A DNA stretch of 64,000 nucleotides from Zingiber officinale. Lineage: Eukaryota; Streptophyta; Magnoliopsida; Zingiberales; Zingiberaceae. The position numbers and the translations under genes were made by a program. Position 1 is the first letter of the stretch. The number at the start of each line of letters is the position of its first letter. The stretch is from assembly GCF_018446385.1 (NCBI RefSeq), contig NC_055988.1:166740837-166804836 (forward strand), given 5' to 3'. The notes under the pieces are model-generated. The model searched no databases. It had not been told where the DNA came from and saw only the letters and a program-made list of their open reading frames with translations. Of the stretch, positions 19,863-63,827 are shown one piece after another.

Positions 19863-22800
19863 TGATCATTCTTACGATACTACAAAGCAGGTTCCAAAAG
19901 CCACATGACTAATATATATTAGATTGTGTCACAACAAAAGACCAAGAGAGGTAACTTGTTGGAGGAAATTAAACTTTTTCTAACAGAGAAAATAGAACAA
20001 ACTACTAATTCATTGTTCAATGGGTCATCATATTGACCCGTTCCAAAGCTGGATCATATCATTTTGTTGTCCTTAAAAACAATTTGAACAGATATGAACT
20101 GAGTTTCTCAGTAAATTTCTCTTAAACCTTGTCAAAATTCTCCCATTTCCCCTATTCTCCTATTCCTCTCATGTTGAATTTTTGTGCTAGCTTGCATAAA
20201 ACTGGCTCTTGCAGATCGCTTGAGACTTCTCAAGTCAGGTAAGGCTAGGAGAATGTGCTCGAGTCTTCATCAAGTGGAGGAGTGGCTGTTGAAGGTGATT
20301 GAGTCAAGGTGACATAGTTGGGAAGGCTATGACATGGCACACTGGTATAGATCTGTAGGTGGTCATGAATGAGGACAAGGCCACTAGATGGGATGACTTC
20401 AACCTTGTTGTGATGATTGCAGTGCCTTTTCCCATTAATGTAGATACTTTGTTTGATGATGTGCTTGTTAGGCGATTTGACTGAGCTCTGATTCCAAGTA
20501 GAGGGTTGTTTGAACTGCCTTGCTTGGGTTGGAAAATATTGTTGTGGGAATTGAGACAGATGGTTTTAAAAATGAAGTTAATGATGGTGGTTTGTGTAGA
20601 ACTTTAGTGCACTAACTTTGGGTAAGCAAGTCAAGAGCCCATGACAGCTATGACTGATAACTATGTTCTTTGTGCCACTCCTAACAACCCAACAAAGGTT
20701 GGATCAATGTGCCATCTAATTTGAGTGATTGAACCAATTAGCCACTGGTTTGTCGATATAGGCAAAATCAAGGGAGGTGCTTGTCTACAAGAAATATTCT
20801 AATAGAAATTAAAAATAAATGACTAATTATTTATTGAATGGTCATCCTATTGTGCCTTTGTAATAGGGTTTGCATCACTGTATTTTCATTGAATTGTGCA
20901 TGTTTAAATCTGATAGATTAAAATTACCTACGTATCAACTGATCTGAATGTTGCATTTGATTTAATGCAAATAATGAACTAGTTCCTTTCCATATGTAAC
21001 AAAATGCTTCTAAGAAACATCCTCACCTGTTGAACTTCTTAGATGAAGTTATTCTGTAGGAACAACCTCCACATGGCACCTAATCATATTAGTGATATTT
21101 TAGAATTTTGACCTATCTTTGTATTAAGGTTGGCAAGCTGGTGCAGAAAATGTATATACTTGAAACCCAAATTGGAAAGACTGGCAGCTGATTATTACCC
21201 AAGGTCAGGAATTGATTTTTCTTGTAATAGATTCACCTTTGTAATTTTAGACTAATTCACAGAATTTTTATGTTCTTTAAGTAAATTTTTATGTTGTTTT
21301 GAGATGCAGCATAAGGTTCTATAGCATTGATGTCAACACAGTTCCTCAAAGGCTTGTAAATCGTGCTGGAGTTACTGTAAGGCCTTGTACCTCCATTGTC
21401 CTGTCCCATCTTCTTTCTGATATTATTTGCTTTAAATATGGTTATCAATTGTCTGATCTGATGTTTGTGACTTTGTTCACCTCACTTTTGTTTGCTTGCA
21501 AAAGTTTAATCATAATTAATTCAAAGTGCTGAACAGTTTGTAATCTGCCATAACTAACTTAATGCCAAGTGGTTGGGAGGGCTGACTACTAACAGATTTG
21601 TTAGAAACATATCTGTCCATGAAATCTCACGAATTAGGACTGGTATTGTTTGTTCCTAAAAGTTGTGAGACCCTTCATCATTAGCAACAAAATTGTGAAA
21701 ACAATGATAGATCAGATGATGGAACATGCCTCCTATCCAAAAAAAAAAATAATAATAATAAAACAGATAATCCCAGTTAGCCTCACTGACTATCTCTGGG
21801 GTGACCAGTCCAGTCCCACGGAAGTTTCCCACTGGTCACCAGGGTAAATCAGGAAGCGCACGCGGCGCCCAGCCCAGGTTCGAACCGCAGGTACCTAGGT
21901 GACAACCTGGATGTCCTACCGCGGCACCATGGCCCCGGGAACATGCCTCCTATCTAGATGATATTGTTGATGTCATTGTTACATGAGGAATTCAAACTTC
22001 CATCTGTACCAAGACAAATGGGTTGAATTTGTAAGTCTCTCTGCTTTCCATCTAAGGTTTGAAATATCATTTGGAGCTGGGGTTTGGTCCCTGGCCAAAA
22101 ACGATATACTATGGTGTTGTTTCACCTATGCCGACACATGATGCCAATGACACCCATTAGGAAGAGGAAGGTGCTGCTTTGCAAAATCTAGATCAGTCTC
22201 AAGTCAAACTCTAATAGTTAAAGAAGAAGAAAAGGAAGAGGAGCAGGAGCACCTTGTGAGCCATCTCATTAAACATCGACGTAGTTGAGACAAATCCTCA
22301 TTTTCACCTTGTGAGCCATCTAGCCACGGAAGCTTATCCCTTTCACCCTGTTGCAGCTTGTAGAAGTTTGAAAGAAGCGTCTGCATCTAATTGTGGGTCA
22401 AGGAGGCCTGGAAACTCATTGCTGAGCTCTATATCTTGTGACTCACTTCATTCTAAAAGCTCATCGTGAAACCCTATTGCTGTTGCGGAAGGCTAGAAGT
22501 GGCCCTTGCTTCATGTTGCAGCTCATGGAAGGCCTGAAAGCTTGCTCTTCTCTCACCTTGAGTCTCGAAGGAGTTTCGTGTGATGGCCAACAAGTGGAAT
22601 GATATTTTTACCTGTGCCAACAGAAATAGGACAAGATATGAAACCCAGTCTATGCCTTTATTTGATCCAATAAATGACCATATGAATTATTATTCCAATG
22701 GTTCAAAAAGCTATCACAGACATCTTATGAGATGCATTTATCAGAATGACAGTAGAAACTTGACGTCATTTCTCGATATGTTCCACCTATGAGATCATTA

Positions 22801-25265: not shown

Positions 25266-25459
25266 GTGATTACTCGATTCGATCAGATCAAATTGAGAAA
25301 TATAGCGGGAGGGATGATTAAGTCAAATCGAACCTCCGGTTCAACAAAATTTCCGACCGGTAGACGTGGTCGTGCTCGTCGCCTTCTTCTTCCTCTTCAT
25401 CAGCGTTTGCCTTGTTTCGTCTCTTTAATCATGGCGCTAAACTTTTTGCTCTTCCAGTG

Positions 25460-25486
25460 ATTTCTCTCTCTCTCTCTCTCTCTCTT
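25460..25486. repeat. (CT)n tract in the ATL leader
   Basis: About 13 CT units lie some 35 bases before the ATL start codon. CT-rich tracts are frequent in plant 5' leaders and can act as promoter-proximal elements. Confidence 0.85.
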
Positions 25487-25521
25487 CCTCCTCTTCGTCT
25501 GTTTTGACCTTTTCCGGTATC

Positions 25522-26436
25522 ATGTCACGGAACGAATTCCGGCAGCCGACGAATCTTTCACCACTCATCCCGTTCCCGTTCCAGTTCCCGCTCCCGTATT
25601 TTCCACCGTCACCGCCACCCCCGCCACCCCCTACGTCGTCCGGTAACTTCCCCGTGCTGACCTTATCCATCCTCAGCATCCTAGCCGCCGCCATCCTCCT
25701 CCTCGCCTACTACTTCTTCGGCGCCCCGTGCTGCTTCTGCCGGCGGAGGCCCGACGCCCTCGGCGGCTCTCGGCGCCGCCTCCGCGACAACTTCTTGATG
25801 TTGTCGATGGGGGCCCGCGGCCTGGCGGCGTCGGAAATACGCCGAATCCCCACCTTCCAGTACCGCAAGGAAAGCGGCGCCGGCGGTGGCGTCGGCGACT
25901 GCGCGGTCTGCCTCGGCGAGTTCCGAGAGGAGGAGACCATCCGGTTGCTGCCGGATTGCTTCCACGTCTTCCACGTGGACTGCATCGACACGTGGCTTCA
26001 TTCCAACGCCAACTGCCCGCTCTGCCGAGCCACCATCACGCCGGCGGGAGCCGGCGCCCCTCTCCCCGTCGACAGGCTCCCTGCTTTCGTCCGGAGCAGT
26101 GGATTTGATCAGAGGAATCGTTCCGACGACGTGGTGATCGACGTGAAAGATGATGAACGGGAAGTCGAGCGGCCGAGGCAGCTCCGGCGCTACCGGAGCC
26201 TCGGCGCACGGCGCCCGCTCCCGGCCTCCGGGCCCATGCGGCGGTCGTTCTCGGTGGGCTCGGCGGCGGCGACTGACCGGCGGCTATACGGGGAAGTGCA
26301 GAAGATAGTGCAGGACAACCCGCACTTCCAGGAAGCGGCGGCGGCAGCCGGGGAAGGGAGCAGCGGTGCCAGTAGAATCCGACGGGGGTTATTTTCATTT
26401 CACCGGCGATCGAGCAGTGCGGCGGCGTTGAATTAG
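25522..26436 (+). CDS. ATL-family RING-H2 E3 ubiquitin ligase
   Basis: A single intronless frame of 304 residues from the ATG at 25522; an in-frame TTG farther upstream is not a plausible start. A Pro-rich N terminus (residues 20-38) leads to one transmembrane helix (about 42-66), then a Cys/Arg-rich stop-transfer stretch. The ATL hallmark GLAASEIRRIPTFQY (GLD-type motif) stands between membrane and RING. The RING-H2 domain spans about 127-168, with CAVC, CFHVFHVDC, the E2-binding DTWL and CPLC. The C-terminal tail is basic and Ser-rich (RRSFSVGS). ATL proteins are plant membrane E3 ligases that often act in stress and defence; the substrate here is unknown. Lack of introns is typical for the family. 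All zinc ligands are present. Confidence 0.96.
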   Translation: MSRNEFRQPTNLSPLIPFPFQFPLPYFPPSPPPPPPPTSSGNFPVLTLSILSILAAAILLLAYYFFGAPCCFCRRRPDALGGSRRRLRDNFLMLSMGARGLAASEIRRIPTFQYRKESGAGGGVGDCAVCLGEFREEETIRLLPDCFHVFHVDCIDTWLHSNANCPLCRATITPAGAGAPLPVDRLPAFVRSSGFDQRNRSDDVVIDVKDDEREVERPRQLRRYRSLGARRPLPASGPMRRSFSVGSAAATDRRLYGEVQKIVQDNPHFQEAAAAAGEGSSGASRIRRGLFSFHRRSSSAAALN

Positions 26437-46599: not shown

Positions 46600-47453
46600 T
46601 GATCCTGTCTGAACGCTGACTCAACGGACGCTGGGCACGGGGCTCTCTCCTTGTCGCTGACGTAGATCTTCGGCCAGTCTCCCGAAGCTCTGGCGAACCT
46701 GCACAGAAGTCGGGCCGGGAAGGGGTTCCCGGCGGGGACCCTCCGACGCTCAAGTCAGGCAAGCAAGCAACAAAGCAGCGGCTCCAAAAATCGTAGAATG
46801 CGTACCTCCGGCGAAATCTGCGGCTCTTTATATAGAGCGGTGAAAGAGCCTCTACACGCCCACCGAGGCGCGTACGTGTCCGCAGCCCATACCTCGGTAT
46901 GTGCTTGTCAGAAAACTTACCTGACGCCATACCGCTACAGTCCAACCATGTCTTCGATGGGACAACAGAACACCTTGTTGTCAGACTTGGAGTATGGCCT
47001 AGCCATAGGACTTGACGGCTGTCAGAAGATGTTCCTGTCCTTCTTTACCCACCACCGACCGGGACGTCCGTCCGGCCGGCTGGACGAAAAGCTCCGTCCG
47101 GACGGCCCTCATCCCCTGCGCCGGCCGGGCGGCACGCCCATCACGTCCCGCCTGTCATTTGCATTGATATGCTGGGGAGACTTCCGGGCGGGTGCTACGT
47201 AAGGACTGTTAGCAGTATGTCACCTTCTCTTAGGCCTTCCACTTGGCTCTTAGCTATTGTTTCATTGAGCGTCGGAACCCCAATCCTTGTCAGGGCGCCT
47301 TTTACTATCAGATATTTACTGGCAAACCGATCGGCTTGCCCTTTTCTCATGAGTCCGGTCGGCTCACCCTTCTTCGACGGACCACCTGGCCTTTTGACCT
47401 CCACGTGGCGTTGACCCCTCGTTAGGGGGTCCCGGGCTTTTACCACCGGATCA
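46600..47453 (-). repeat. 3' LTR of the Tat element
   Basis: 854 bp, TGATCC to GGATCA on the plus strand, matching the copy at 56390-57243. Just inside it a purine-rich tract on the element strand (GAGGGGAAGG) is the probable polypurine tract. Confidence 0.92.
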
Positions 47454-48083
47454 CTTGCCTTCCCCTCGAGTCTAGTCGAAGGAGGCGAAGTCCGACTGAC
47501 TGGACTGCCGATCTGATTGAGCAACGATCACTGCATTAGGCCGTTCGGCCAGGCATAGGGATACTCATCCGTTCGGCGATATCTTGTCCATGCCTTGTGT
47601 TCTCTTGGAATCCATGTCCGATGCTCTTCCCTAATACCCATCACGTGCGCTGCGCACGGTAAGGGGAGCTCATTAAATGCAGCCAGTATCCTGCTGACAC
47701 GTGGCAATCGTGCGTTTGTCAGAGTATGGCGGTGACGTCACTTCCGATGGGACATCCGCCGTTTGAAATGAACGGCTGGATGATGACCTCGTTATCGTCG
47801 ACCTGGATCGGACGGTGTAAATTGATCGCGGCCGCCCTTATAAAGCTCCCGACCCCAGCTCTCCGCCGCATTTCGGCCTCATCTCCTCCCGACGTTTCGC
47901 TGCTCCTTTCTTCTCCGGCGACCCCACAACCCCCTTCGATCATCCTCTTTGCCCGTAAGGATTCCTTTTCCTTGCCGCCTCTCCTTTTTTCTCTCTATTA
48001 GCTATTTCTTTCATCATCCCGCATTCTTTCCCTGTTTTTATTTCTCCCTCCTTCCATCACACGTCCATCCCTAGCCTTATACC

Positions 48084-50263
48084 ATGACCAATACCTCACA
48101 GCCGACCGGCGGTGCTCCGGGTCTTTGGTATTCAGCCATGGAAAGCCAGTTCAACGAGGAGGACGCCTTGCGCCTCACTCGAACCTATGATCTACCGACC
48201 GACCACCAAATAGTGTTAGCCACACCGACCGATCGACCTCATGAACCGCCGCTCGACACCGTTTTATTCTTCCGAGACCAATTTTTGGCCGGGCTACGCT
48301 TTCCACCCCATAAGTTCTTCTTACAAATCTGTAATTATTTTCGCATTCCGCTCGGCCAGGTAGTCCCTAACTCCATTAGGCTGCTGAGCGGAGTGATAGT
48401 CCTTTTTAAACTGAACAACATCCCCCTCGACCCTAAGATTTTTCACTACTTTTTTTATCCCAAGCAAGCCGAGTGGGGTACCTTTATTTTCCAATCTAGG
48501 ATAGGCTTCGTCCTCTTTGATAATATGCCGAGCTCCAACAAACATTGGAAGGAGCACTTTTTCTATGTGTGTTTTCCCGAGCGGCCAACTTTTCGCGATG
48601 CCGGCGCAACCGGAGCTCGGCAAATTTAGAGGCAATGCAGCCTACCTTCATGCGGCCGAGCGGTTGGTGGGTCAACGCTATCACATTGACAAGCTGCTAC
48701 TCCCAGGAGTAATGTACATATTTGGCCTGTCTTCCACCCCAGCCGATCTGCCTTGCAGCATGAGTAAGCGATTCTCATCCCTCCTTTTTCTTTTGTTCTA
48801 ATTGATTTAATCTTTGTTTCTGCAGCTGAAGTCATGTGGCGTGCTAAGGCGACCGAGAAGCTCAAACTGAAAGCCGCTCAGATTGAGGCGGTGAAGAACA
48901 AGGAGGTCGCCGAGCGGGGCCTTGATCCAGCCGATTCGACCGGCGAATTAGGCGAGGGGACCCAGGATGCCCCTGAAGCCTTAGCAGCTACTACCTCTCA
49001 CAACGAGGCAGCGGGCGGCACAGAACCTTCTACCCAAGCCAAGGTGGAGGGTCGTTCGGCCGATGATGTTCCGCTAGTCACTCGGAAGCGCCGACGACCG
49101 GAATCTGCATCTGCCTCAATTCCACTTTATGATCCACAGCCCGAGCGGGGCGCGGATGCTCCGGTGTTGTCCGGGACGGTTTCCCTAGAGAGTACCCCGA
49201 CCCTACATGGCTCTCCGAGGGCAAGCTCCGAGGTGCTGCCGTCCAGCCCTTCAAGAACTCTGCGCCGTATCAGGCGTTTGGGCGAGCTTCCTTCCTCGTC
49301 CACCGGTGGGCCATCCGGTAAGACTGATGCTTCTCAGGGCGAGCCGAGCGGCTAGAACTTAATTAAAACCGTCCTACACCTCCCCTCGGAGGAATACATG
49401 GCTGCTGCTGATCGGCCAGTGGTCCCCGAGCAGCAGATCACCTTGATGGGCCCTCTTGCAAAAGCTTGGGAGGACGCTCGGCGCCGAATAAAAGTAATGA
49501 CTCCCGGGCAGCTCGGCGACAGCAACCTTCAACAGGCCACCGGGGTATGCTCTTTTTCTTTGTTCGTGTATTTGAATTAAGTTTTTAACTCGTTCACTTT
49601 TGCTCGTAGAATTGGGTGGAGCAAATTGCCGTTAGCAATCGGTTGGCCGAACTGGAGGATGAATTGAAAAAACTCAAGGCCGCGGGGGACAGCCAACAGT
49701 CGACGGCCACTCTGGAGAAGGCCAAAAAATTACTGGAAGCCGAACGGAAACGGGCTTCCGATTTGGCGAGCAAGGTCGTTCGACTTGAAGCGATGGTCAA
49801 ACAACGAGATAAGGAGATCAAGACGGCGATCACTCGGAAGCGACAGGCCATCGATGACATGGATCGAATGAAGGTGGAGATCAGAGGGCTAGAGCAACGC
49901 ATCAAGGATCTGGATGCCCTTCTGGCCACCGAGAAGGAGGGCCGCTCGGCCGATCTTCAAAGATTTGATGGAGATTTGAAGGATCTTCAAGCCGCCAGCG
50001 ACGCTGCCCATGCCGAGCTCAAAGAGTATCAAGAGGGGGAGTCGGCTCGCTCCGACGAGGTGAGGAAGGCATTCGTCCACTCGGATGCCTTTGGGGAGAA
50101 ATTTACTGACAAGATCTCCCTCACCTTTGAAGAGGCGATCAAAGCGGCTGTGGATCACTTAAAGGCCAAAGGCCACCTGCCCGCCGAGCTGACCATCCCT
50201 CCCGAGGACCTCGCGACCGTGATGGGCGCCATCCCTGATCCTCTTTTTGATTTCGACGCGTGA
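48084..50263 (+). mobile_element. Additional opposite-strand gene of the Tat element
   Basis: On the strand opposite gag-pol, exon-like segments separated by plausible introns cover 48.08-50.26 kb. The first encodes a domain like the plant 'putative gypsy-type transposon' family (DTVLFFRDQFLAGLRFP, FRIPLGQVVPNSIRLL). A Ser/Pro-rich middle follows, then a long Glu/Lys/Leu-rich coiled coil (about 49.62-50.1 kb). Extra genes between integrase and the 3' LTR, sometimes antisense, are known in Tat elements; their role is not understood. Part of a fossil retroelement; I do not try to restore its exact product. Confidence 0.7.
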
Positions 50264-50708
50264 GGAGTATTTCTTATGAACTTTTTTGTATCCCCGCCGT
50301 TCGGCCAAACTTATTTCTGCTGTAACCTTTTTGGTTAGCCCTGTGCTTAATAGATAATCTTTTCCTTTCCTTCAACTTTTGTTTTGGCAAGAAATTTCTT
50401 TCGTCACATTCAAGTGTTCTTTAAAACCCCTCCGCTCGGCTTCATACTCTAATACGGACTCAAGTCGATTGTTTTCAGAAAATGTCTTTTCCCCATGCGC
50501 CTGCATAGCCGCTCGGCGCGCGAACGTCGCACGCTCACGTGCTCCCATCTTTAATTCTTATTAACCATCTTTTGCTTTGCACCTTACCTCACAGAGGTTT
50601 TCCATATATTCTTGCTAAGCGAGCCGCTCGGCTGTATGTTGGCCTTCAAGCACAGGCTCTGTCGTCGGTCGGCTCTTACCGCCGGAATGTATCACTTGGA
50701 TGGACATC

Positions 50709-51089
50709 CGCTCGGACGTTTATAGACGCCGGCTCGTCTCTCGATATTTAACGTCGGAGCTCGACGGTCTTCCGCTCGGACGTTTATAGACGCCGGCTCG
50801 TCTCTCGATATTTAACGTCGGAGCTCGACGGTCTTCCGCTCGGAGGGTATATAGACGCCGGCTCGTCTCTCGATATTTAACGTCGGAGCTCGACGGTCTT
50901 CCGCTCGGACGTTTATAGACGCCGGCTCGTCTCTCGATATTTAACGTCGGAGCTCGACGGTCTTCCGCTCGGACGTTTATAGACGCCGGCTCGTCTCTCG
51001 ATATTTAACGTCGGAGCTCGACGGTCTTCCGCTCGGACGTTTATAGACGCCGGCTCGTCTCTCGATATTTAACGTCGGAGCTCGACGGC
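50709..51089. repeat. Six tandem copies of a 64-bp unit inside the Tat element
   Basis: Unit starts (CGCTCGGACG) fall at 50709, 50773, 50837, 50902, 50966 and 51030, so the period is 64 with one 65-bp copy (the third unit, with GGAGGGTATATAG). The other copies are almost identical. The array lies between the end of the integrase region and the extra gene. Such 3' tandem arrays are known from Tat elements and can seed satellite DNA. Confidence 0.95.
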
Positions 51090-51219
51090 CTTTATGGCTA
51101 ACTTCGATACTACCGATCGGCGCAACCCTTGGCCATCCTTTGAATTAATTTTGATTCCTGCATTACAAGGACACGGACTACTAGCATATACACAAAAATG
51201 AGTTACATTCGTGCACCTT

Positions 51220-54200
51220 TCATCCAGCTCGATAAGGCTGGAGATGATTTGCACTCCACGATCGATCTAGCTGCCGCCCGTCTTCATCCTCCAAATAATA
51301 TGCGCCCGAGCGGAGCTTTTCAATAACCTTGAAGGGGCCCGCCCACGGTGCCTCCAGTTTGCCGACGTTGCCGACCGACTTGACTTTCTTCCAGACAAGA
51401 TCGCCGACTTGGAATGATCTGGGGATTACACGGCGGTTGTAATTTTGCTTCATCCGTTGCCGGTACGCCATCAGCCGGACGGACGCCTTGGCTCTTTCTT
51501 CTTCGACCAGATCCAGCACCATGTTCCTCCGCTCGGCATTGTCCTCATCGTAATGTTGGATCCGAGCGGACTCGACGCCGACTTCGACCGGAATGACCGC
51601 TTCGCCACCATACACCAAATGGAACGGCGTGACGCCCGCCCCTTCTTTCGACGTCGTTTGGATGGCCCATAAGACGTCCGACACTTCATCCGGCCAACTT
51701 CCTCCCAAATGGTCGAGCCGGGCGCGCAGAATGCGAAGAATTTCCCGATTGGCTACTTCGGCTTGACCGTTGCTCTGGGGATAAGCCACGGACGTGAAGT
51801 GTTGCTCGATGCCGTAGCTTTTGCACCAACCCTCTAGCATCTTCCCTGTGAATTGCCGCTCATTGTCGGAAACCAATCGGCGAGGGATGCCCAACCGACA
51901 GATGATGTGTTGCCAGATAAATTTTTTGACCATCTGTTCGGTGATCTTGGCTAGCGGCTCGGCCTCCACCCACTTGGAAAAATAATCAACCGCCACTAGC
52001 AAAAATTTCCGCTGCCCGGTCGCCATCGGAAATGGACCGACAATATCCATTCCCCATTGATCGAACAGACATGAAACGGTTGATGCCTTCATTTCCTCTG
52101 CCGGTCGGTGGGAGAAGTTGTGATACTTTTGGCACGAAAGGCACGTAGATATTGTCCGGGAGGCGTCTGCTTGTAAGGTTGGCCAAAAGTACCCGGCCAA
52201 GAGGATCTTCTTGGCCAACGATCGTCCGCCCGGATGTCCTCCGCACGATCCTTGATGTACTTCTTGGAGGATGTAAGCCGAGTCCTCCGAGCTCACGCAT
52301 TTCAACAACGGGCGTGAGAAAGCCTTTTTGTAAAGCTGATCACCGATGAGTGTGAACCGACCGGCTCTCCTCCTTAGTAGCAGGGCTTCATACTCATTGG
52401 ATGGTGTGGCGCCCGAACGGAGGAACTCTATGATGGGTGCCCGCCAGTCGCTTGGAAATGTGAGGCCTTCCATCCGGTCGACGTGCGCCACCAACAGTAC
52501 TTTTTCAATTGGCTGCTGAATGGCGACCGGCGTTATTGAGCTCGTGAGTTTGGCTAACTCATCAGCTGCTTGATTTTTTGCTCTGGGTATCTTCTGGACA
52601 ACAACCTCTCTAAAATCGGCTTTGAGCTTCTCGAAGGCTTCAGCGTAGAGCTTGAGCCGAGCATTATTGATTTCGAAGGTACCAGAAAGCTGCTGAGCGG
52701 CCAACTGCAAATCTGAGTGAAGTGTTACCCGACCGGCTCCCACATGCTGGGCGGCCTGCAAGCCAGCTATGAGGGCCTCATACTCTGCTTCATTGTTGGT
52801 AGCTTTATAATCCAGCCGGACGGATAAGTGCATCTTTTCTTCTTGAGGGGAGAGCAACAATATTCCAATCCCGCTTCCGAGCCGAGTGGACGACCCATCC
52901 ACATATATTCTCCACATAGCTTCCGGCTCTGAATTCTGAACTTCAGTCACAAAATCCGCCAAGGACTGCGCTTTGATCGCCGAGCGGGGCTGGTATTGGA
53001 TATCGAATTCACTTAACTCCGTCGTCCATTTGATGAGTCGTCCGGATGCCTCTGGATTTAGTAGAACACGTCCGAGCGGGCTATTGGTTTTGACAATGAT
53101 CGTATGCGCCAGGAAGTATGGACGAAGGCGCCGAGCGGCGAGGACCAGAGCGAAAGCTAGCTTTTCGAGCCCAGTGTAGCGAAATTCAGCATCTTTTAAA
53201 ATGTGACTAAGGAAATACACAGGCTCCTCTCCGCTCGCCCTCACCAGTGCTGAGCCGATTGTCTGCTCGGTCGAGGATAGATAAATACAAAGTGACTCCC
53301 CAATAGTCAGCTTGGCTAATACCGGGAGCGAATTCAAATATGCCTTTAAATCTTCGAACGCCCGGTCGCATTCTTCGTCCCAGTGAAATTTTGTAGCCTT
53401 TCGTAAGATCCTAAAAAAAGGAAGGCTCCGGTCGGCGGTTTTGGAGATGAATCTGGACAGAGCGATTATCCGACCGGTCAAACGCTGCACTTCCCTTGTA
53501 TTTCTTGGAGGCGGCATATCTTGTAGGGCTTTCACCTTGCTTGGTCACTATGTACCCCAAGAAACGCCCTCCTTTTGCTCCGAACAGGCACTTCTGGGGA
53601 TTTAGCTTGACTCCATATTTGCGTAGCGTTCGGAAGGTTTCTTCCATACCCTTGAAGAGATCGGCCGCTCGGACGGACTTAATGAGAATGTCGTCCACAT
53701 AAACTTCTAGATTTCGCCCGATCTGCTCTCTGAATACTTTATTCATCAAGCGCTGATATGTGGCCCCCGCGTTCTTCAATCCGAATGGCATCACATTATA
53801 GCAATAAGTACCGTCAGCAGTCACGAAGCTGACTTTTTCTTGATCTTCACGGGCGAGCGGCACTTGGTGATATCCCTGGTAGGCGTCGAGCATACAGATT
53901 AATTCGTATCCGGCCGTAGAGTCCACCAGCTGATCTATCCGGGGCAGAGGATAAAAATCTTTCGGGCAAGCTTTGTTGAGATCCCGAAAATCTATGCACA
54001 CTCTCCACTTGTTGCCTGGCTTGGAGACTAATACTACGTTAGCCAACCAGCTCGGGAACTGCACCTCTCGTATATGGCCGGCCTCCAGAAGTTTTTCCAC
54101 CTCCGCTCGGATGATGGAATTCTGCTCGGCGCTGAAGTCCCTTTTTCTTTGCTTTACGGGCCGTGCGTCTGGTCGGACATGTAGCTCATGCTGCGCTATG

Positions 54201-54895
54201 CTCGGCGAAATTCCAGGCAGCTCATGCGTCGACCAGACGAAGACATCGTGATTTCTTCGGAGGCATTGGATTAGCTCCTCTTTCTGCTTCTCCTCCAGAT
54301 CGGACGCAATAAAAGTCGTGGCCTCCGATCGGGATGGGTGAATCTGCACTTCCTCTTTTTCTTCATAAACTAAAGAGGGAGGCTTTTCTGTGATGGCGTT
54401 TACCTCGATCCGGGGCGCCTTCCGAGCGGAATTGGCTTCTGCTCGGACCATCTCGATATAGCATCGCCGAGCTGCTAGTTGATCTCCCTGTACTTCTCCC
54501 ACTTTGTCCTCTACGGGGAACTTGATCTTCTGATGGAAGGTTGAGACGACCGCTCGGAATTCGCTGAGCGTCGGTCGTCCCAAAATGATGTTGTAGGACG
54601 AGGGAGAGTCGACCACCACGAAGTTTGTTGTTCTTGTCCTCCTGAGCGGCTCTTCTCCCAGCGAGGTAGCCAGCCGGATCTGTCCGACCGGCTGAACTTC
54701 GTTACCCGTAAACCCGTAGAGCGGAGTTGTCATGGGCAACAGCTCGGCTCGATCAATTTGCAGCTGATCGAACGCCTTCTTGAATATGATGTTGACTGAG
54801 CTCCCTGTGTCAACAAATACGCGGTGAATAGTGTAATTGGCTATTACCGCTTTGATGAGTAGAGCATCGTCGTGGGGTACTTCAACTCCTTCCAA
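51220..54895 (-). mobile_element. pol region of the Tat element
   Basis: On the minus strand, from high to low coordinates: aspartic protease (FVDTGSSVNIIF, near 54.8 kb), reverse transcriptase (VDDILIKS, about 53.5-54.3 kb), RNase H (YVDGSSTRLGSG and NNEAEYEALIAGL, about 52.7-52.95 kb), and integrase with the zinc-binding part and the DDE core (WGMDIVGPFP, about 51.5-52.3 kb). All expected domains are visible in order; the region is largely open, with very few breaks. Confidence 0.93.
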
Positions 54896-55117
54896 GTCCC
54901 CGGGCCCGAAACTAATTTCGGGTCCTTCCGCTCGTTCTTGGCTACAACCGACCGCATGAATCTGGAGCTGCCGGACGCTCGCCTTTCTAGCTCGGTTGGA
55001 GTCTCCTCCGGTCGGCCCGCCAGCAATAACGTTGATCTCGCCTCGGGAAGTATTGCTTCTATTTTCCTCTTCCCGAGCGGACGGTCGAGACCGTTCTCTG
55101 GACGCTCGGCGATTCTC

Positions 55118-56344
55118 CTACCTTGGAGAACGATGCCGATCGGGAATCTGTTGTCGTGGCCTATCAGCTCGCGTCCGATCGGCTTCATGAGTTCTCTGTT
55201 GCCTGTCGACTGAGGGAGACCGTCGTCCGGCTTTCCGGGGCACAAGATGAGCCACGAAGGGAAGACTTCGACAATCCCTTGTGTTGTGCGTATCCGTCCG
55301 GTGGAAGGAGCAGAACATCGGGGTCCATCTCTTCTTTGGCTTGGGCCGGGCGGCAGCTACCTCTTGCACATGGGACCTGGCGTGGGGGGATCGGATTGCT
55401 TCGGCCCTTGATCCTCTAGGCGGTTGATGAGCGGCGTGCTATTTCCGCTCGGCCGGAGGAGCCCGCTCGGCTGGAGTTTCCTTTTTCCTTGCCGCTTGCG
55501 CTTCTTCCACGTTGATGTATTCGTTAGCCCGGTGTAGAATGTGATCGTAATCTCGGGGCAGCTTTCGGATGAGTGATCGGAAAAAATCCCCGTCCACTAG
55601 GCCTTGTGTGAAGGCATTCATCATGGTTTCCAAAGTGGCCGTTGGAATATCCATCGCCACTTTGTTGAATCGCTGAATGTAAGCTCGGAGCGATTCACGG
55701 GCTTCTTGCTTGATGGCGAACAGGCTCACGCTCGTTTTCTGGTAGCGTCGGCTGCTTGCAAAATGGTGGAGGAAGGCCGTTCGGAAGTCCTTGAAGCTTG
55801 TGATGGATCCGTCCGGCAGCCTCCGAAACCACTGTTGAGCCGATCCCGAGAGTGTGGTAAGAAAAACTCGGCATTTTACTCCATCTGTGTATTGATGGAG
55901 AGTAGCTGTGTTATCAAACTTACCCAGATGATCATCTGGGTCAGTTGTCCCATTATACTCGCCGATCGTCGGAGGCACATAGTGCTTCGGCAGAGGATCT
56001 CTCAGAATATCCTCTGAAAATTGGCGATTAATCCTCTCGGGTGATGCGTCCGCTCGGGGGGCTTTCCCCTTTCTGTCATCTCGTCTAGGCATCTCATCCG
56101 AAGAAGATCCCCTATCTCTATGAGCTGGTACGGCTTCAGGGGTGCGGAATAGGGCTCGATGAAATGCAACGGTGGTCGGTAGTGCTTCCGCTCGACCACC
56201 AGACGCTGATGTTGCTTGCTGCTCCGGCCGCTCGGCTATGGCTTTCTGTTTTTGCTCCACAAGCTTGGCGGCCCTTATCTCGATCAGAGCGTCGAGTTCC
56301 TCGTTCGAAAGCGTCACCATGTGTTGTCGTCCAGTCTCGTCCAT
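55118..56344 (-). mobile_element. gag region of the Tat element
   Basis: The N-terminal part includes the retrotransposon gag domain (ITSFKDFRTAFLHHF, ESLRAYIQRFNKVA); a zinc-knuckle-like CSFHRTDTHNTRDC follows near the protease side. It sits just inside the 5' LTR. Part of the same element and mostly open. Confidence 0.9.
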
Positions 56345-56389
56345 TGCTTCCGATCGGATGCAGGAGCGTTCCCACAGACGGCGCTAAAT

Positions 56390-57243
56390 TGATCCTGTCC
56401 GAACGCTGACTCAACGGACGCTGGGCACGGGGCGCTCTCCTTGTCGCTGACGTAGATCTTCGGCCAGTCTCCCGAAGCTTTGGCGAACCTGCACAGAAGT
56501 CGGGCCGGGAAGGGGTTCCCGGCGGTGACCCTTCGACGCTCAAGTCAGGCAAGCAAGCAACAAAGCAGCGACTCCAAAAATCGTAGAATACGTACCTCCG
56601 GCGAAATCTGCGGCTCTTTATATAGAGCGGTGAAAGAGCCTCTACACGCCCACCGAGGCACGTACGTGTCCACAGCCCATACCTCGGTATGTGCTTGTCA
56701 GAAAACTTACCTGACGCCATACCGCTACAGTCCAACCATGTCTTCGATGGGACAACAGAACACCTCGTTGTCAGACTTGGAGTATGGCCTAGCCATAGGA
56801 CTTGACGACTGTCAGAAGATGTTCCTGTCCTTCTTTACCCACCACCGACCGGGACGTCCGTCCGGCCGGCTGGACGAAAAGCGTCGTCCGGACGACCCTC
56901 ATCCCCTGCGCCGGCCGAGCGGCACGCCCATCACGTCCCGCCTGTCATTTGCATTGATATGCTGAGGAGACTTCCGGGCGGGTGCTACGTAAGGACTGTT
57001 AGCAGTATGTCACCTTCTCTTAGGCCTTCCACTCGGCTCTTAGCTATTGTTTCATTGAGCGTCGGAACCCCGATCCCTGTCAGGGCGCCTTTTACTATCA
57101 GATATTTACTGGCAGACCGATCGGCTTGCCCTTTTCTCATGAGTCCGGTCGGCTCACCCTTCTTCGACGGACCACCTGGCCTTTTGACCTCCACGTGGCG
57201 TTGACCCCTCGTTAGGGGGTCCCGGGCTTTTACCACCGGATCA
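56390..57243 (-). repeat. 5' LTR of the Tat element
   Basis: 854 bp, TGATCC to GGATCA on the plus strand, differing from the partner LTR at about 20 sites. CTCTATATAAAGAG on the element strand is the likely TATA box of the element promoter. The following TTTAGCGCCGTCTGTGGGAA is the probable primer-binding region; I could not name the tRNA. Confidence 0.92.
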
Positions 57244-57430: not shown

Positions 57431-58273
57431 TACGATGAGGCATTTCTTGTGCACCATTTGTGACACGTGTTGTAGTTTCTTATGGTATCCCATTTTGTAC
57501 CGTTGGTTCTAAAGTAGGCGTGTCTTCTCTAATAAGAATCACATTGGTCAAATGTCTACATTTATGTTAAATGTAGTTGTCCATTTAATTTATATTGTAG
57601 ATAACATGGTGTGTGGTGTCACACAGAAGATCATGTTATCAGTTCCTGATAAATTATAATTAGTAGCTCATAACCAAGATGGATTGGGACAAACCATTAG
57701 AATGATTGTAGTATAATTTGGTATTAGTTTATCTTGACTATAAAGTTACACTAGTACACTATGTGTGTATTGAGCAGGACCATCTGAGGTTGTTTCTTTT
57801 TATACTGACTGCATAAAAGAACAAAACCTCTGTTATTATGGATGTGCGTACTCTTAATCCCGATATAATAACAAGCACATATACTTAGTATTTATTTCTT
57901 TAATTTATCAATGTGTGAGATTTAGTTCGTTAAATCAATAGACCCGATAAGTTGGGAAATGATATTATTTATATGGTGTGTTGTTGATTATAAAAAGAAA
58001 TTGTGTCCTAGTAATCTAGGTTGATGATGCCCCCTTGAGGAGCTCATAAGGATTGTCATATAAACCCTGCAGGTGGACTTAGTTCGACATGACAATAAAG
58101 TTGAGTGGTACTACTCTTGGAGCTAGATATTAATTAAATGAGTTGTCAGTAACACATTTAATTAATGTGCATTCAATATCTTAAACATAGGGAGACTGAC
58201 ACACTCATAATAAGAAGGAGTCCATAATGTAATTTGGGATTGGTGCGATAGTTCAATAATAACTCTTTAGTGG
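57431..58273. repeat. Probable LTR fragment of an older retroelement
   Basis: No coding content. The text (AGTTCGTTAAATCAATAGAC, CCTTGAGGAGCTCATAAGG, GAGTGGTACTACTCTTGGAG, AAGAAGGAGTCC) looks to me like an LTR seen repeatedly in monocot genomes, but no partner LTR is present here, so family and limits are uncertain. A Tat LTR begins at 58274. Confidence 0.4.
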
Positions 58274-58557
58274 TGATCCTGTCCGAGCCAGAAGTCAACA
58301 GACGCTGGGCATGTGGCGCTCTCCGGCTCGCTGATGTAGATCTCCAACCGGTGGCACGATGCTCCGGCTAACTTGCACAGAAGTCGGGTCGGGAAGGGGG
58401 TTCCCGGCGGCGACCCTCCGACGCTCAAGTCAGGTAAATTACGATGAACAAGGTGGCTCCCAAAGTCTCAGAATACCTCTCGAAAAATCCCCCCCTCCAG
58501 CGAAGTCTGAGGCTCTTTATATAGAGATGTGAAGGGTTTGGGCACGTGTACCGAGGT
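58274..58557 (-). repeat. Second Tat-type LTR, left part
   Basis: The sequence starts TGATCCTGTCCGAGCC and matches the LTRs of the 46.6 kb element clearly but imperfectly (GACGCTGGGCA, GCACAGAAGTCGGG, GCGACCCTCCGACGCTCAAG, CTCTTTATATAGAG). It is cut by the CACTA element and resumes at 63828. It belongs to a different, related insertion that continues beyond the window. Confidence 0.85.
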
Positions 58558-58574
58558 CACTAGTAGAATTTTAG

Positions 58575-58810
58575 CTTTTTACTTCGGCACTCTTTACTTC
58601 GGCGATTATGAATTACGAAGTAATATATAACAATCAACTTCGTTAATAATACTAGCGAAGTAAAATATTATTTATTACTACAGAATTTTAAAAACAAGTG
58701 CTTCACTATTAATTTTAATACTATTTTACTTCGGTATATTATTTTTGATAAAGTAAAAAAGTTTCAAATATATAGATAATTTTTGTTATGAAGTAAAAAA
58801 AATGAACCGG
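58575..58810. repeat. Left subterminal repeats of the CACTA element
   Basis: ACTTCGG/ACGAAGTAA words occur repeatedly in both orientations after the left end. In En/Spm-type elements such repeats bind the element's own DNA-binding protein and bring the ends together; the same role is inferred here. Confidence 0.75.
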
Positions 58811-60192
58811 ATAGGAATTAATTAGACTTCTAATTCCTATCTCAATTCTAATTGTTACTAATCTTAATTAAAATTAGAAAAAATTAGAATCTTTTTATTA
58901 ACAAGCCACGCAAAAAGTAATTCCAAGCCCTAGCCCTAGAAATTACTCGTGCGTGCCGTCTCCTGCCTTCTACCGCACCTCGCCGTTTTCCCACTTGCAT
59001 CTTCTTCCTCCGCGTCTTCAGCCACAGCTCCATTTTTTCAGCTCTAGCTTGTGTCTCCATCATCCGCGTCTCAAGCCTTGCATCTCCGTTCTCGGATCTG
59101 CATCGCCAGCCTGCATCTCCAGCTTTGGGCTCCTACATCCTCTGTTTTTTACGTCTCCAGCGTGCGTCTCCGTCCGCCATTTGTGCGTCTTCAGGCTTGC
59201 ATTATATAGGGTCAGTCTTCTACTGCCCTCTCTTGGATCTAGTTTGATGCTTATTGAAATGTGCTTTCTAAGCTATCAGTGAATCGTTGAATCGTTGATG
59301 CTTATAGAAATCTGCTTTGACTGATTTCTAGTTCATTGTCTTCTATTCTCAAGAAATCAGTAATCGTTGAAATTTTGAGGGATTATTTAGGAATTTGATT
59401 GTTGATATATCTATTCAAGTATGGTCGATATACCTTTTTTAATATGGAAGATTTAACAAAGGGATGTTCAAGGTATCGAGGATAAACAAATTGAGGATAA
59501 TAATGAACTAATTAGGTCAGGTCAAGATCCTACAGTTCACACCATAATCTTCCTACAGTTATTTGCAAATTTATACTAATTGATAAATTTTGCAGTAAAT
59601 CAATTCCAATAAAACTAGACGGTGATTTTTTTTAAAAAAATTGATTCCTTTTGTTGATTACAATTTTGTTCAAATATTAGGTAGTCAATGGCAAAGAGAT
59701 ATGCTTGTTGAAGTTCCTAATATCTTAATTTCATATCATGACAATTCACTTCTATGTCTTCTCATAGTTTATTATTAGCTTGTATAGGATATTGATGGTT
59801 TTTACTGCAGTTGCTGCTAGGTTCTGTCACATGATTCATGGTTTTCTTCCACTAAATATCTACCTTCAATATGCATGGCTTTTCCTATTTATATATATGT
59901 CTGTAAATTTTCATTCATTATTGTGTATTGTAATTAACACATGCATGTTATTAATTAACACAACTTGAGTACGAAGATGAGAGAATCCTACAGCAGATTC
60001 ATAACCTACACAAATTCTCTTCGCCCATGCTAAATGCTAATGCTAAATTGATTAGGATGCTAATGCTAATGCACCACTAGTATTGAACTGCCTTATTTTT
60101 ATTTATCAATTTGCTCTTTCATTATATGTTCATATTATTATATTGTTAGTTCCCTTATATTTCATTTATGTTCTATTGCAGGAAAGAGCATA

Positions 60193-62016
60193 ATGGGTCG
60201 TAAAAAGGAGGGGAAAAAACCTACAGTTGAAGAGCTACAAGACTTAAATGAAGATAAGCTGCATGGAGGTATTGATGCAGAGCAACATGGACTTTCTAAT
60301 GAAGAAGAAGGTCTTGTAGATGTGCAAAAGAAGAAGAGAGGACCTACATTGATGGGTAAACTAACTGCAGCTGCAAGATGGGGCAAAAAAGCAAAGATTG
60401 ATTATGATAACATGGGAAGGCCAGCATACAATGCAAATGGAAGGGCTTTACAATCATACATTGGCTCTATTGCTAGATCTATGGTGCCAATTAATATAAA
60501 GTCCTGGCCTGATGTTCCAGAAAACATAAAACAAAAAGTTTGGGAAGAGATCTCTGTAAGTATAAGATTAGATTTTATATATTGTTCATTTAAATTTGTT
60601 AATTTAGTTTATACATAAAGTGTATATAACAGCAAGGGTTTAGATGCAATTCAACATCTTTGTATGCTAATGCTTGTTATACTACAAATGTCTTAAGGCT
60701 GAATTGCAAGTGTTCATTAACTGCAAAAATCTGTAATGCTTAACAGAAAGTATAATGCTTGTTATATAATTTTTTCGTAATGTCTGTTATATTGCAAGTG
60801 TCTTAATTATAACAGCAAGTGTTCATTAACAGCAAGTGCTTGTTAGACTGTAATGCTTATTATACAAATCTGTAATTGTATCAACATCTCTATAATGCTT
60901 GTTATACAAATCTTCATTACCTATATACAGATTTCAGCATGTCTTAATTACCTACTGTAATGCTTGTGAGTCTGTTGTAATATTTTTTTTAGTAGAATTA
61001 CTAGTAGAATTTAGTAGAAATCAGCATGTCTTAATAGTACCAACTAATATTTTTTTTTGCAGAATGTCTTCGAACTAGCTCCACAAAGTGAGACTACTGT
61101 AATGAGTTCAGCAGCTCAAAAGTGGCGAGATTTCAAAAACAAATTGACCAGCAGATTTGTATGGCCGAATAGGAAAAATCCTGAAAAGTTAATTTCTCCC
61201 CCAAGTCAGTATCAGCTCCTAATAACAGATTGGAAAGCATTTGTGGATGCGAGACTGGATCCATCATGGGAGGTATAATTTATAAATTGTCATGTTTTTT
61301 TTAAGAACTATTAATTTCCATACTTAAATAAAAAACATAATGATGTAGGTTATTCATGAAAAACAAAAAGAACGGACCATGCATTGTAAATATCACCATA
61401 GAATGTCTCGTAAGGGTTACATCGGCTTGGAGGCTGAAATGGTAAGATATATATGGAGTATTCTATTTGTTATTTTAAGTAAGTTTTTCATGTTCTTAAA
61501 CTGATGAATTTTGAATTGTAGAGAGAGAATAATATAATTGCTGAAGACGAGGAAGTTGATAGATCAGTGCTTTGGCGTAAAGCCCGGGAAGATAAATCTG
61601 GCAACATAACAAATGTGGAGACGTCAGAAGTTGCAGGAAAAATTGTAAATGTTTAGTTTTATTCAATATCCATATTGCCTAGATAAATAAAAATGTAGTT
61701 TTTGGATTGATTGTTATGTCTTCAATTGTAGGATGACTTGTTGGAAAAGAAAGAGAAAGGAGAGTTTAAATCTTCTGGAATGAATGATGTGCTAACCACT
61801 GCTTTAGGAAGCCAAGAACATTATGGAAGGGTTCGAGGTGTGGGAGGGTTCGTAAAACCTCAAGTCTACTTTAAAACTCCAAGAAAGAAGAGAGAATCAG
61901 TCCCAAACACTATGGCCGAAAACTTCAAAGAACAATTGGAAGAGACTAAGAGGTTAAAGGCTGAATTGGAGAAATTGAAAGCTCAACTTGCTAGTGTTAT
62001 GCCAGACAAATTTTGA
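60193..62016 (+). CDS. Plant transposase-24-like (Ptta/En/Spm) protein of the CACTA element
   Basis: Five exons (60193-60555, 61063-61272, 61349-61441, 61522-61644, 61732-62016), all phase 0 with GT-AG introns, give 357 residues from an ATG in MGRKKEGKKPTVEELQDLN. A Lys-rich start is followed by GRPAYNANGRALQSYIG, SWPDVPENIKQKVWEEI, AAQKWRDFKNKLTSRFV, then SVLWRKAREDKSG, and the diagnostic LTTALGSQEHYGRVRGVGGF with VYFKTP; a short coiled coil (EQLEETKRLKAELEKLKAQL) ends the protein. This order is that of the Transposase_24 family, a non-catalytic partner protein in CACTA elements, probably a binder of the subterminal repeats. No stop interrupts it, so it may still be expressed. Confidence 0.85.
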
Positions 62017-62133
62017 TTTACATGGGGTATGTTATGTCTAACTTACAATATTTGTTTGCATTTTAATATTTTATTTGGAACTTGCCCACACTTTGAAACA
62101 TTTCTAACCAAGTTATATAATCTTTGAGTGCAG

Positions 62134-63003
62134 TTATCTCTATAAATATTTGAGTGATGAAGACAGGGCTGATTATGTTTCATTTGTGGATCCCGGCAAC
62201 ATACCTACATGCCCACTTGGTAAAGATGGTCGTGACATATCACAACATATTGCCGATCAGTTGAAAGCAGTGTGTAGAGACAGCATCTGCCTCATCCCAT
62301 ACAACACTGGGTAATATTTTAATTATTTATCGATTCTTATTACATATTAGTCAATGTTATATTTTTATTTTTGCAGGTACCATTGGATCTTGACTATTGT
62401 CAATGAAGATAAAAATATGATATATTTATTGGACTCTATGTCTAATAGAAATCGAGACGATGCATGGAAAACTATGGTGACCAGGTAAGTAGTAGATTGT
62501 GTTGATTTTGAATGCATTCACTTATAAATATGAAAAATATAACTTTTTTACTTTTTAAAATGTAGTGGGGTCAAGATGTACAATGCCTCAAAAGGTATTG
62601 CTAAAGCACCAGGTTTTAAGCAATTGACGATATGTATTGTACATATATATTAACACATGAATGGATAGTTCTTATTATTTGGATTGTAATTGTTGCATTA
62701 CTTTTTTGATTACATTATAGGGTAATCTAAAACAAAGTGGTTCTGTTGAATGTGGATATTGTGTGATGAGGTACATGAAAGAGATAGTTGAATGTGAAAA
62801 TCCACAGTTAGAGAAGATGGTGAGTTTCTTCTTTATGATATATAATATATGAATGTAATGATTTTATAAATCTAATGCATTTTTGTATTTTTTTTACATA
62901 ATAGTTTGCAGGAACAATCAAGAATCAATATTACAACCAATCTCAATATGATGAAGTCAGAAGTGAATGGAGCGAATTTATCTACTCGTATCTAGATGTC
63001 TAA
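62134..63003 (+). CDS. Ulp1-like (peptidase C48) cysteine protease domain of the CACTA element
   Basis: Exon-like segments 62134-62310, 62377-62484, 62566 to about 62630, 62721-62819 and 62905-63003 carry a C48 fold: YLSDEDRADYVSFVDPG, then GYHWILTIV with the catalytic His, IYLLDSM with the Asp, and QSGSVECGYCVMRYMKEI with the oxyanion Gln and nucleophile Cys. The chain ends SEFIYSYLDV-TAA. Ulp1 proteases cleave SUMO-like proteins; plant transposons have captured the domain several times. The join to the gene before it passes a TGA at 62014, and the donor of the third segment is not a clean GT, so it may be a second gene, an alternative C terminus, or slightly decayed. All catalytic residues are present. 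Confidence 0.75.
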
Positions 63004-63234
63004 ATGAGTCGTGTAGGTTAGGATAAATATTTTATTTTACATTATGAATTTTTGGACATACATACTTGTGGATACACTTTTGGTTTGTGGATGTATTTTT
63101 TAGTTATGTTTGTGGAGTAATGGATATATATATACTTGTGGATTGATGGATAAATTTCTAGATTGTTATGGTATTTGTCATTTTGTTATATATATATATA
63201 TATTGTTTAATTTTGATGAAGTGAAAAATATATT

Positions 63235-63800
63235 TTTACTTCGTCACATTAAAATTGTGTCGAAGTCAAAGGTAACATTTACTTCACCACATTTAATAAT
63301 TGCGAAGTCGTATCTTATCAATTACTTCAGTATAATATAAAACAATGAAGTCTTGACAATCAATTACTTTGTTAATAAATATAAACTATGAAGTAACATA
63401 ATACCAACTACTTCGATTAATATAAAATATGGTGAAGTTATAGATTATATTTACTTCGCCAATCAATATAAACCGTGACGTTACATATCATCTATTACTT
63501 CAGCACATTACACAACCGATGAAGTAAAAGATACTATTTTACTTCGGCAATCCATTTAAATCATGCAGTTGTATATCATTTTTTACTTCGGCACTTTATA
63601 AAACGAACTAAGTAAAAGATGTTTTTTTACTTCAGCATTGGTCCAACTTTGAACCGGTTTTGCCTCCTTGAACCGGTCAAAGACTTCGCTTTTTTCTTGG
63701 ATACGACTTCGGTAATAGGATGAAGTAAAATATTACCCTATTACTTCACGTGCGTCTACTTCGGTAATTATCTATCTATGACTTCGGTGAATATACGAAG
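63235..63800. repeat. Right subterminal repeats of the CACTA element
   Basis: More than ten TTACTTCG-type words in both orientations fill the right end (for example TTTACTTCGGCAATC, CTTCGGTAATTATC). Their similarity to the left end defines the element together with the inverted repeats. Confidence 0.8.
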
Positions 63801-63827
63801 TAAAAAGCCATAATTCTACTAGTGGGT

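Follow-up and report, generated by a model that had tools for sequence, protein, structure and literature searches.

Transposons of the CACTA superfamily carry different sets of protein domains, and Belyayev et al. sort them into four domain types (PMC8978399). In the available text of that paper, the complete six-domain set ("CDA Type 4") is reported only from Caryophyllales. Ulp1-type (ULP) domains are also described from five grapevine CACTA families, Cactavine-2, -3, -4, -5 and -13, by Benjak et al., whose available text likewise mentions rice proteins that combine Tnp2 with ULP1 (PMC2528002). In the accessible part of a study of lettuce, Transposase_24 serves as the mark of tnpA, the TnpA protein is a binder of subterminal repeats, and most CACTA elements carry neither of the two frames (PMC8195511). 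Beyond the superfamily, the portion available of a review attributes anti-silencing to the VANC proteins of Mutator-like elements (MULEs), some of which contain Ulp1 (PMC13317346). Here, we describe a CACTA element with a Transposase_24 gene and a Peptidase_C48 (C48) segment in ginger, Zingiber officinale, near the end of a 64-kb stretch (the window; C3:166740837-166804836) of the 3.09-Gb genome assembly. The copy in the window is very probably a young, non-autonomous derivative of a CACTA family of about 10.4 kb, shaped by two internal deletions, and its C48 segment is most likely a remnant. The six-domain layout is already in print, and the window copy is an ordinary deletion derivative.

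The element is complete at window positions 58558-63824 on the plus strand, with a length of 5267 bp. Its exact 13-bp ends, CACTAGTAGAATT, stand at 58558-58570 (plus strand) and 63812-63824 (minus strand) within a 29-nt inverted repeat that is 93% complementary (58558-58586, plus strand; 63796-63824, minus strand). GGT flanks the element on both sides (58555-58557 and 63825-63827) as a 3-bp target-site duplication. The motif TWACTTCR, which was picked after the element ends had been read, has 32 matches in the window, where chance alone would give 10.05; the 5.27-kb element holds 20 of them, against about 0.8 expected there, with six at the left end (58579-58796) and 14 at the right (63236-63803). 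Inverted ends that begin with CACTA, a 3-bp duplication and subterminal repeats in both orientations are the marks of the superfamily, all of which the element bears, and an earlier note on this DNA, which had described a whole CACTA element from its perfect 13-bp ends, GGT duplication and dense subterminal repeats, was right on each count. The insertion lies in a part of a long terminal repeat (LTR) at 58274-58557 (plus strand), which is 83% identical over 162 bp to the LTR of a retrotransposon at 46600-57243, and the host repeat around the element has many copies in the genome. A 230-nt query made of the joined flanks with a single GGT matched all 40 LTR copies listed (40 scored of 3324 candidates) at 95-98% identity, spanning the whole of 1-230 in 38 of them and 3-230 and 1-225 in the other two. 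Since these LTR copies are uninterrupted, the insertion is clean.

Sibling copies were sought with the first 543 bases of the element, which gave at least 44 matches from 40 scored of 577 candidates, a number that takes in the window copy itself and also four short second matches. The best 20 places besides the window copy were studied as siblings and 11 of them were extended, a sample that over-represents younger copies. Both ends could be located in ten of the 20 (L009-L013, L015-L017, L019 and L026). Exact 3-bp duplications flank eight of these ten, with one mismatch at L013 and no match at L026; the outer base is altered at the 5' end of L013 and the 3' end of L012, and the ends of L026 also differ. 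L010-L013 measure 10.2-10.5 kb and L019 11.1 kb, and the identity of L010-L013 to the window copy is 97.2-99.3% per aligned piece. Each of these four covers all three frames used as TNPD queries, and in L011 Pfam finds in those frames Transpos_assoc, Transposase_21 (E 6.3e-88), DUF4218 and DUF4216. On one strand of the full-length siblings, the TNPD block is followed by a single gene that encodes both Transposase_24 and C48. In L010, this second gene has twelve exons, GT/AG at each inner border and an unbroken product of 746 amino acids, in which Pfam places Transposase_24 at 177-306 and Peptidase_C48 at 615-710.

With the domains of the TNPD block assigned on L011, Transposase_24 and C48 on L010, all above the curated cut-offs, and both blocks present in each of L010-L013, the sibling family belongs to type 4. 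Its full-length members share the six domains of Jozin, the type 4 element of Chenopodium iljinii and C. vulvaria, in the same order as given in the available text: TAD/Transpos_assoc, Transposase_21, DUF4218, DUF4216, Transposase_24 and Peptidase_C48 (PMC8978399). Unlike Jozin, the window copy keeps Transposase_24 and C48 alone, out of frame with each other, and thus not the set of six. L010, with L033 (C4:72.76 Mb), is a full-length sibling with an unbroken Transposase_24-C48 frame of 746 amino acids, and the Type 4 six-domain layout is thus present in this genome.

The first of the two losses removed the transposase. About 4.3 kb that is present in L010-L013 is missing from the window copy between element bases 1394 and 1404 (window 59951 and 59961), and this stretch is the whole TNPD block. 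At the scar (59951-59961) lies a 9-bp filler, TAATTAACA, which repeats sequence about 20 bp upstream. When the sibling TNPD frames were searched against the window element by tblastn, nothing better than E 0.59 was found. The view that no TNPD-like transposase is present therefore holds, and a hidden TNPD, which the earlier note had named as a result that would tell against it, was looked for and rejected. The Transposase_21/TNPD gene of an autonomous CACTA element being absent, the window copy is classed as non-autonomous, as had been thought probable. In genome searches allowing up to two mismatches, the scar occurs at two places, here and at L009 (C3:33.58 Mb), and the duplications at the two sites differ, GGT here and CTA at L009. 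Across 5328 aligned columns, the window copy and L009 show 28 mismatches.

Because a filler is present, the deletion may have arisen by incomplete copying during the repair of an excision gap. The TNPD-less derivative would then have moved with transposase supplied in trans, as two copies with an identical scar occupy different sites with different duplications. Deletion derivatives of En/Spm (dSpm-type) move in trans in this manner, and they too keep the ends and subterminal repeats and have lost the inner coding part, a likeness of description and not of sequence. A second deletion derivative, L015 (C2:175.11 Mb) and L016 (C3:21.12 Mb), is 5277 bp long and keeps C48 and no Transposase_24. 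Over 5277 bp the two copies share 99.5% identity, and their duplications differ, TCT and AAC; therefore another deleted form of the family has also moved. In both, a reading frame opened at the TNPD start ATG is 48 residues long and ends short of C48.

The second deletion, which cost the window copy 786 bp in comparison with L009 and L010, occurred at a 6-bp microhomology, TGCCAG (62000-62005), and its scar is unique to the window copy in a genome search allowing up to two mismatches. As L009 has the first scar and not the second, deletion 1 preceded deletion 2. About 200 residues were taken by the second deletion, approximately 355-556 of the L010 product of 746 amino acids. Upstream of the scar stands a truncated Transposase_24 gene at 60193-62016 on the plus strand (exons 60193-60555, 61063-61272, 61349-61441, 61522-61644 and 61732-62016). 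Its spliced frame of 357 amino acids is open, with no inner stops, and matches PF03004 at E 1.1e-10, above the cut-off, in agreement with the Transposase_24-type gene of the earlier note. The frame ends at a stop at 62014-62016, and the last codons and the stop itself were created by deletion 2.

Behind this stop, the C48 exons are read in a different frame from Transposase_24 (62134-63003, plus strand: 62134-62310, 62377-62484, 62566-62629, 62721-62819 and 62905-63003). Spliced together, with exon 3 read to the sibling border, they match Peptidase_C48 (PF02902) at E 7e-9, above the cut-off. The residues that we take to be catalytic are all present in the order His-Asp-Gln-Cys, as had been claimed, with codons starting at 62381, 62432, 62733 and 62751. 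A sequence search of the PDB with the C48 domain gave weak matches and added little to the Pfam assignment: the best match, at E 0.021, was to a chain labelled conserved membrane protein, and the best to SENP1 had E 0.044. The donor after exon 3 (62630-62631) reads AT, where 12 of the 13 aligned siblings have GT and L025 also has AT; if intron 3 is retained, a stop is met before Gln and Cys. The window copy thus holds no C48 frame that is continuous with the gene start and has normal splice sites. The earlier description of a Transposase_24 gene followed by a C48 segment stands as to the presence of both; as to their being separate genes it does not, for they form one gene in the siblings and are out of frame here.

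C48 is often retained in the family. Among the ten two-ended siblings, it is found in all ten (178-180 of 180 residues), Transposase_24 in six and TNPD in five. The ten other fetched places have at least 156 residues of C48 in L014, L018 and L025, 84 in L027 and 115 in L028; in L020-L024 its coverage is 0 or 1 residue, and no 3' end lies within the fetched stretch. The requirement for a 3' end favours copies that bear C48, because C48 is nearest to that end and is spared by internal deletions. A single insertion of host sequence as the origin of C48 was rejected, since C48 occurs in siblings across the family. Its presence in all ten two-ended siblings, and whole or in part in five more of the 20, rules out a one-off, decaying host insertion, the other result that had been named as contrary to the earlier view.

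The counts of coding changes draw on 11 sequences for Transposase_24, 12 for the middle part of the gene and 14 for C48; the majority codon was taken as ancestral, the sequences are mutually related, and the counts are small. Sibling exons matched over less than half their length were dropped, as was one inserted base of L013, and missing bases were turned into gaps. Summed over pairs, the ratio of non-synonymous to synonymous differences (pN/pS) is 0.56 for Transposase_24, 0.69 for the middle part and 0.39 for C48. Changes in C48 that are common to at least two copies comprise 11 synonymous and 12 non-synonymous ones, a ratio of 0.26 against the neutral site ratio (p 0.0018), and those confined to a single copy comprise 15 and 48 (ratio 0.76, p 0.22). 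The corresponding ratios for Transposase_24 are 0.34 (p 0.007) for shared and 0.74 (p 0.13) for single-copy changes. The deficit among shared C48 changes persists when the window copy is left out (p 0.0018) and also when L025 and L026 are (p 0.015). The difference between shared and single-copy changes in C48 is fragile, with a Fisher p of 0.038 for all sequences, 0.062 without the window copy and 0.34 without L025 and L026. The middle part, which is partly misaligned, gave no significant constraint; its counts are unreliable, for in L012 and L019 the placement of exon D7 is off by a few bases, and without L012, L018 and L019 the ratios are 0.40 for shared (p 0.14) and 1.03 for single-copy changes. 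The older, shared changes of C48 suggest purifying selection in the family, as they do for Transposase_24, and the pattern fits a protein that would be functional in the source elements.

Taken together, these comparisons point to a full-length ancestor with a TNPD block followed by a gene for a Transposase_24-C48 protein, having Transposase_24 in its N-terminal half and the Ulp1-type C48 at its C-terminus. Deletion 1, with its filler, took out TNPD, and deletion 2, at its microhomology, excised the central part of the second gene and shifted the frame of C48. In intact copies, the Transposase_24-C48 protein may play the part of TNPA and bind the subterminal repeats, with C48 as an accessory, and the main possible product of the window copy would be a truncated Transposase_24 protein.

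Several observations weigh against this history. The second-gene frame is open in only one of the eight siblings read (L010), although in L012 and L019 the sole stop adjoins a doubtful exon border. The TNPD frames are broken or unproven in all ten siblings scanned, and no sibling examined combines an unbroken second gene with a single unbroken TNPD frame. A living source of transposase can hence only be inferred, as no examined sibling is proven autonomous. The scar of deletion 1 could in principle have been copied between sites by gene conversion, and the exon borders were set by GT/AG and sibling alignment alone. Just past the Transposase_24 stop and upstream of the C48 exons, at 62022, lies an ATG that is in frame with C48. 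When nine GT sites were tried as donors, seven led to a stop before Cys and two left the frame open, at 62570 and 62639; the former removes most of C48 exon 3, and the latter, a cryptic donor, adds three residues, keeps the domain almost complete and yields a predicted C48-only product of 186 amino acids with all four residues. Such a separate product is unlikely, for it would need re-initiation behind a frame of 357 codons as well as use of an unproven donor. That C48 is wholly untranslatable from the window copy is nevertheless too strong a statement in view of this ATG and donor, which also take a little away from our confidence in the two-deletion history.

The same ATG and donor slightly raise the standing of the proposal of the earlier note, namely that the element is distinct, lacks a transposase and has retained a working deSUMOylase by selection, perhaps for an effect on silencing or on the stability of the transposase; we still regard this as very improbable. 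It could draw on the retention of all four C48 residues, on the possible product of 186 amino acids, on the presence of C48 in all two-ended siblings, ahead of Transposase_24 and TNPD, and on the constraint seen in the older shared changes (ratio 0.26). These points are met by the loss of the normal donor and of the common frame with Transposase_24, by a C48 start codon that lies behind the Transposase_24 stop and requires re-initiation, and by the position of C48 nearest to the 3' end, where internal deletions spare it in any case. Moreover, the form with deletion 2 is single-copy, the frame of L015 and L016 from the TNPD start ends before C48, and single-copy changes are without clear constraint (0.76, p 0.22). 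Selection for the retained protease is thus not borne out at this copy, where C48 is out of frame behind the stop at 62014-62016 with AT at its donor, and the signs of constraint are confined to older changes shared in the family. Nor is the arrangement, which the earlier note had thought worth classifying, borne out as a distinct one: it is a full-length element with TNPD and Transposase_24-C48 minus two internal pieces.

A different role could fall to the other product. The truncated Transposase_24 protein might be made and act in trans by binding subterminal repeats, and in this way compete with full-length elements or repress them, which seems unlikely to us but deserves some weight. Its frame of 357 amino acids is open, the 5' region is kept, 20 subterminal motifs are at hand, and the available text of the lettuce study describes TnpA as a binder of such repeats with Transposase_24 as its mark (PMC8195511); against this, the copy is young, as its few differences from L009 show, and an open frame needs no selection. 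It is also conceivable, though quite doubtful, that the Transposase_24-C48 protein of intact members is TNPA-like and that its deSUMOylating domain aids escape from host silencing, by analogy with Ulp1-bearing VANC. The deletion-1 lineage of the window copy and L009 would then have spread as transposase-less carriers, and the window copy might make two separate products, the Transposase_24 protein of 357 amino acids and, starting at the ATG at 62022, one with C48 alone. What leaves this idea some room is that the shared C48 changes look constrained, that use of a cryptic donor would give an open C48-only frame, and that L009, which has lost TNPD, kept all the Transposase_24-C48 exons, now with two premature stops. 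The reverse history, in which elements without TNPD came first and the siblings acquired the block later, is next to impossible, and no supporting point was found for it. The filler at one joint and the microhomology at the other are signs of deletion, and ten of the 20 siblings fetched have TNPD, among them five diverged ones with 83-90% identity over the first 600-720 bp. Genome-wide, Transposase_21 has at least 150 scored matches, all families taken together.

On the preferred reading of two successive deletions, neither the lack of a transposase nor the presence of a protease by itself calls for an arrangement built by selection. In this one family, a single protein bears Transposase_24 and, as its C-terminal end, C48, whose older changes show signs of constraint. 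Any inquiry into the use that transposons make of Ulp1 domains should start from the intact fusion and not from the window copy. The likeness to the grapevine families lies in a ULP1 domain on CACTA elements, and the terms 'Transposase_24' and 'TNPA' are absent from the main text of that paper as available (PMC2528002). The KIU/Kaonashi VANDAL MULEs, in the accessible part of the review, resemble the family in having a Ulp1 domain in a non-transposase protein of a transposon; they belong to a different superfamily and are likened here by description, not by homology (PMC13317346). No paper came up in a literature search that combined CACTA, transposase and 'SUMO protease'.

As regards the chromosomal context, both haplotypes appear to be present in the assembly. 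A low-copy probe from 20001-20600 of the window is matched again on C4, with an identity that is 100% when rounded, which points to such an assembly, and has relatives of 70-78% identity on C13 and C14. For the stretch 57500-58274, which borders the LTR on its left, the best second match is likewise on C4, 26.7 kb beyond that of the probe, and only there do its first 32 bases match; the identity, 95%, is no higher than that of other copies of the repeat, so that the matching place is probable, not certain. C4 follows the window to 58274 and then diverges (501 bases seen), and both the LTR part and the CACTA element are absent at this probable place on the homologous chromosome. Neither deletion scar was found on C4 in the genome scar searches (up to two mismatches).

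Two further features of the window were observed. The retrotransposon at 46600-57243 has terminal repeats of 854 bp with 97.7% identity and long minus-strand frames that look Gypsy-like by eye, and within it lies a tandem array (50707-51092) with copies about 64 bp apart and 97-99% alike. At 25441-26436, an open frame of 331 amino acids shows a RING-like cysteine/histidine pattern, and is perhaps, judged by eye, a host gene of the ATL type.

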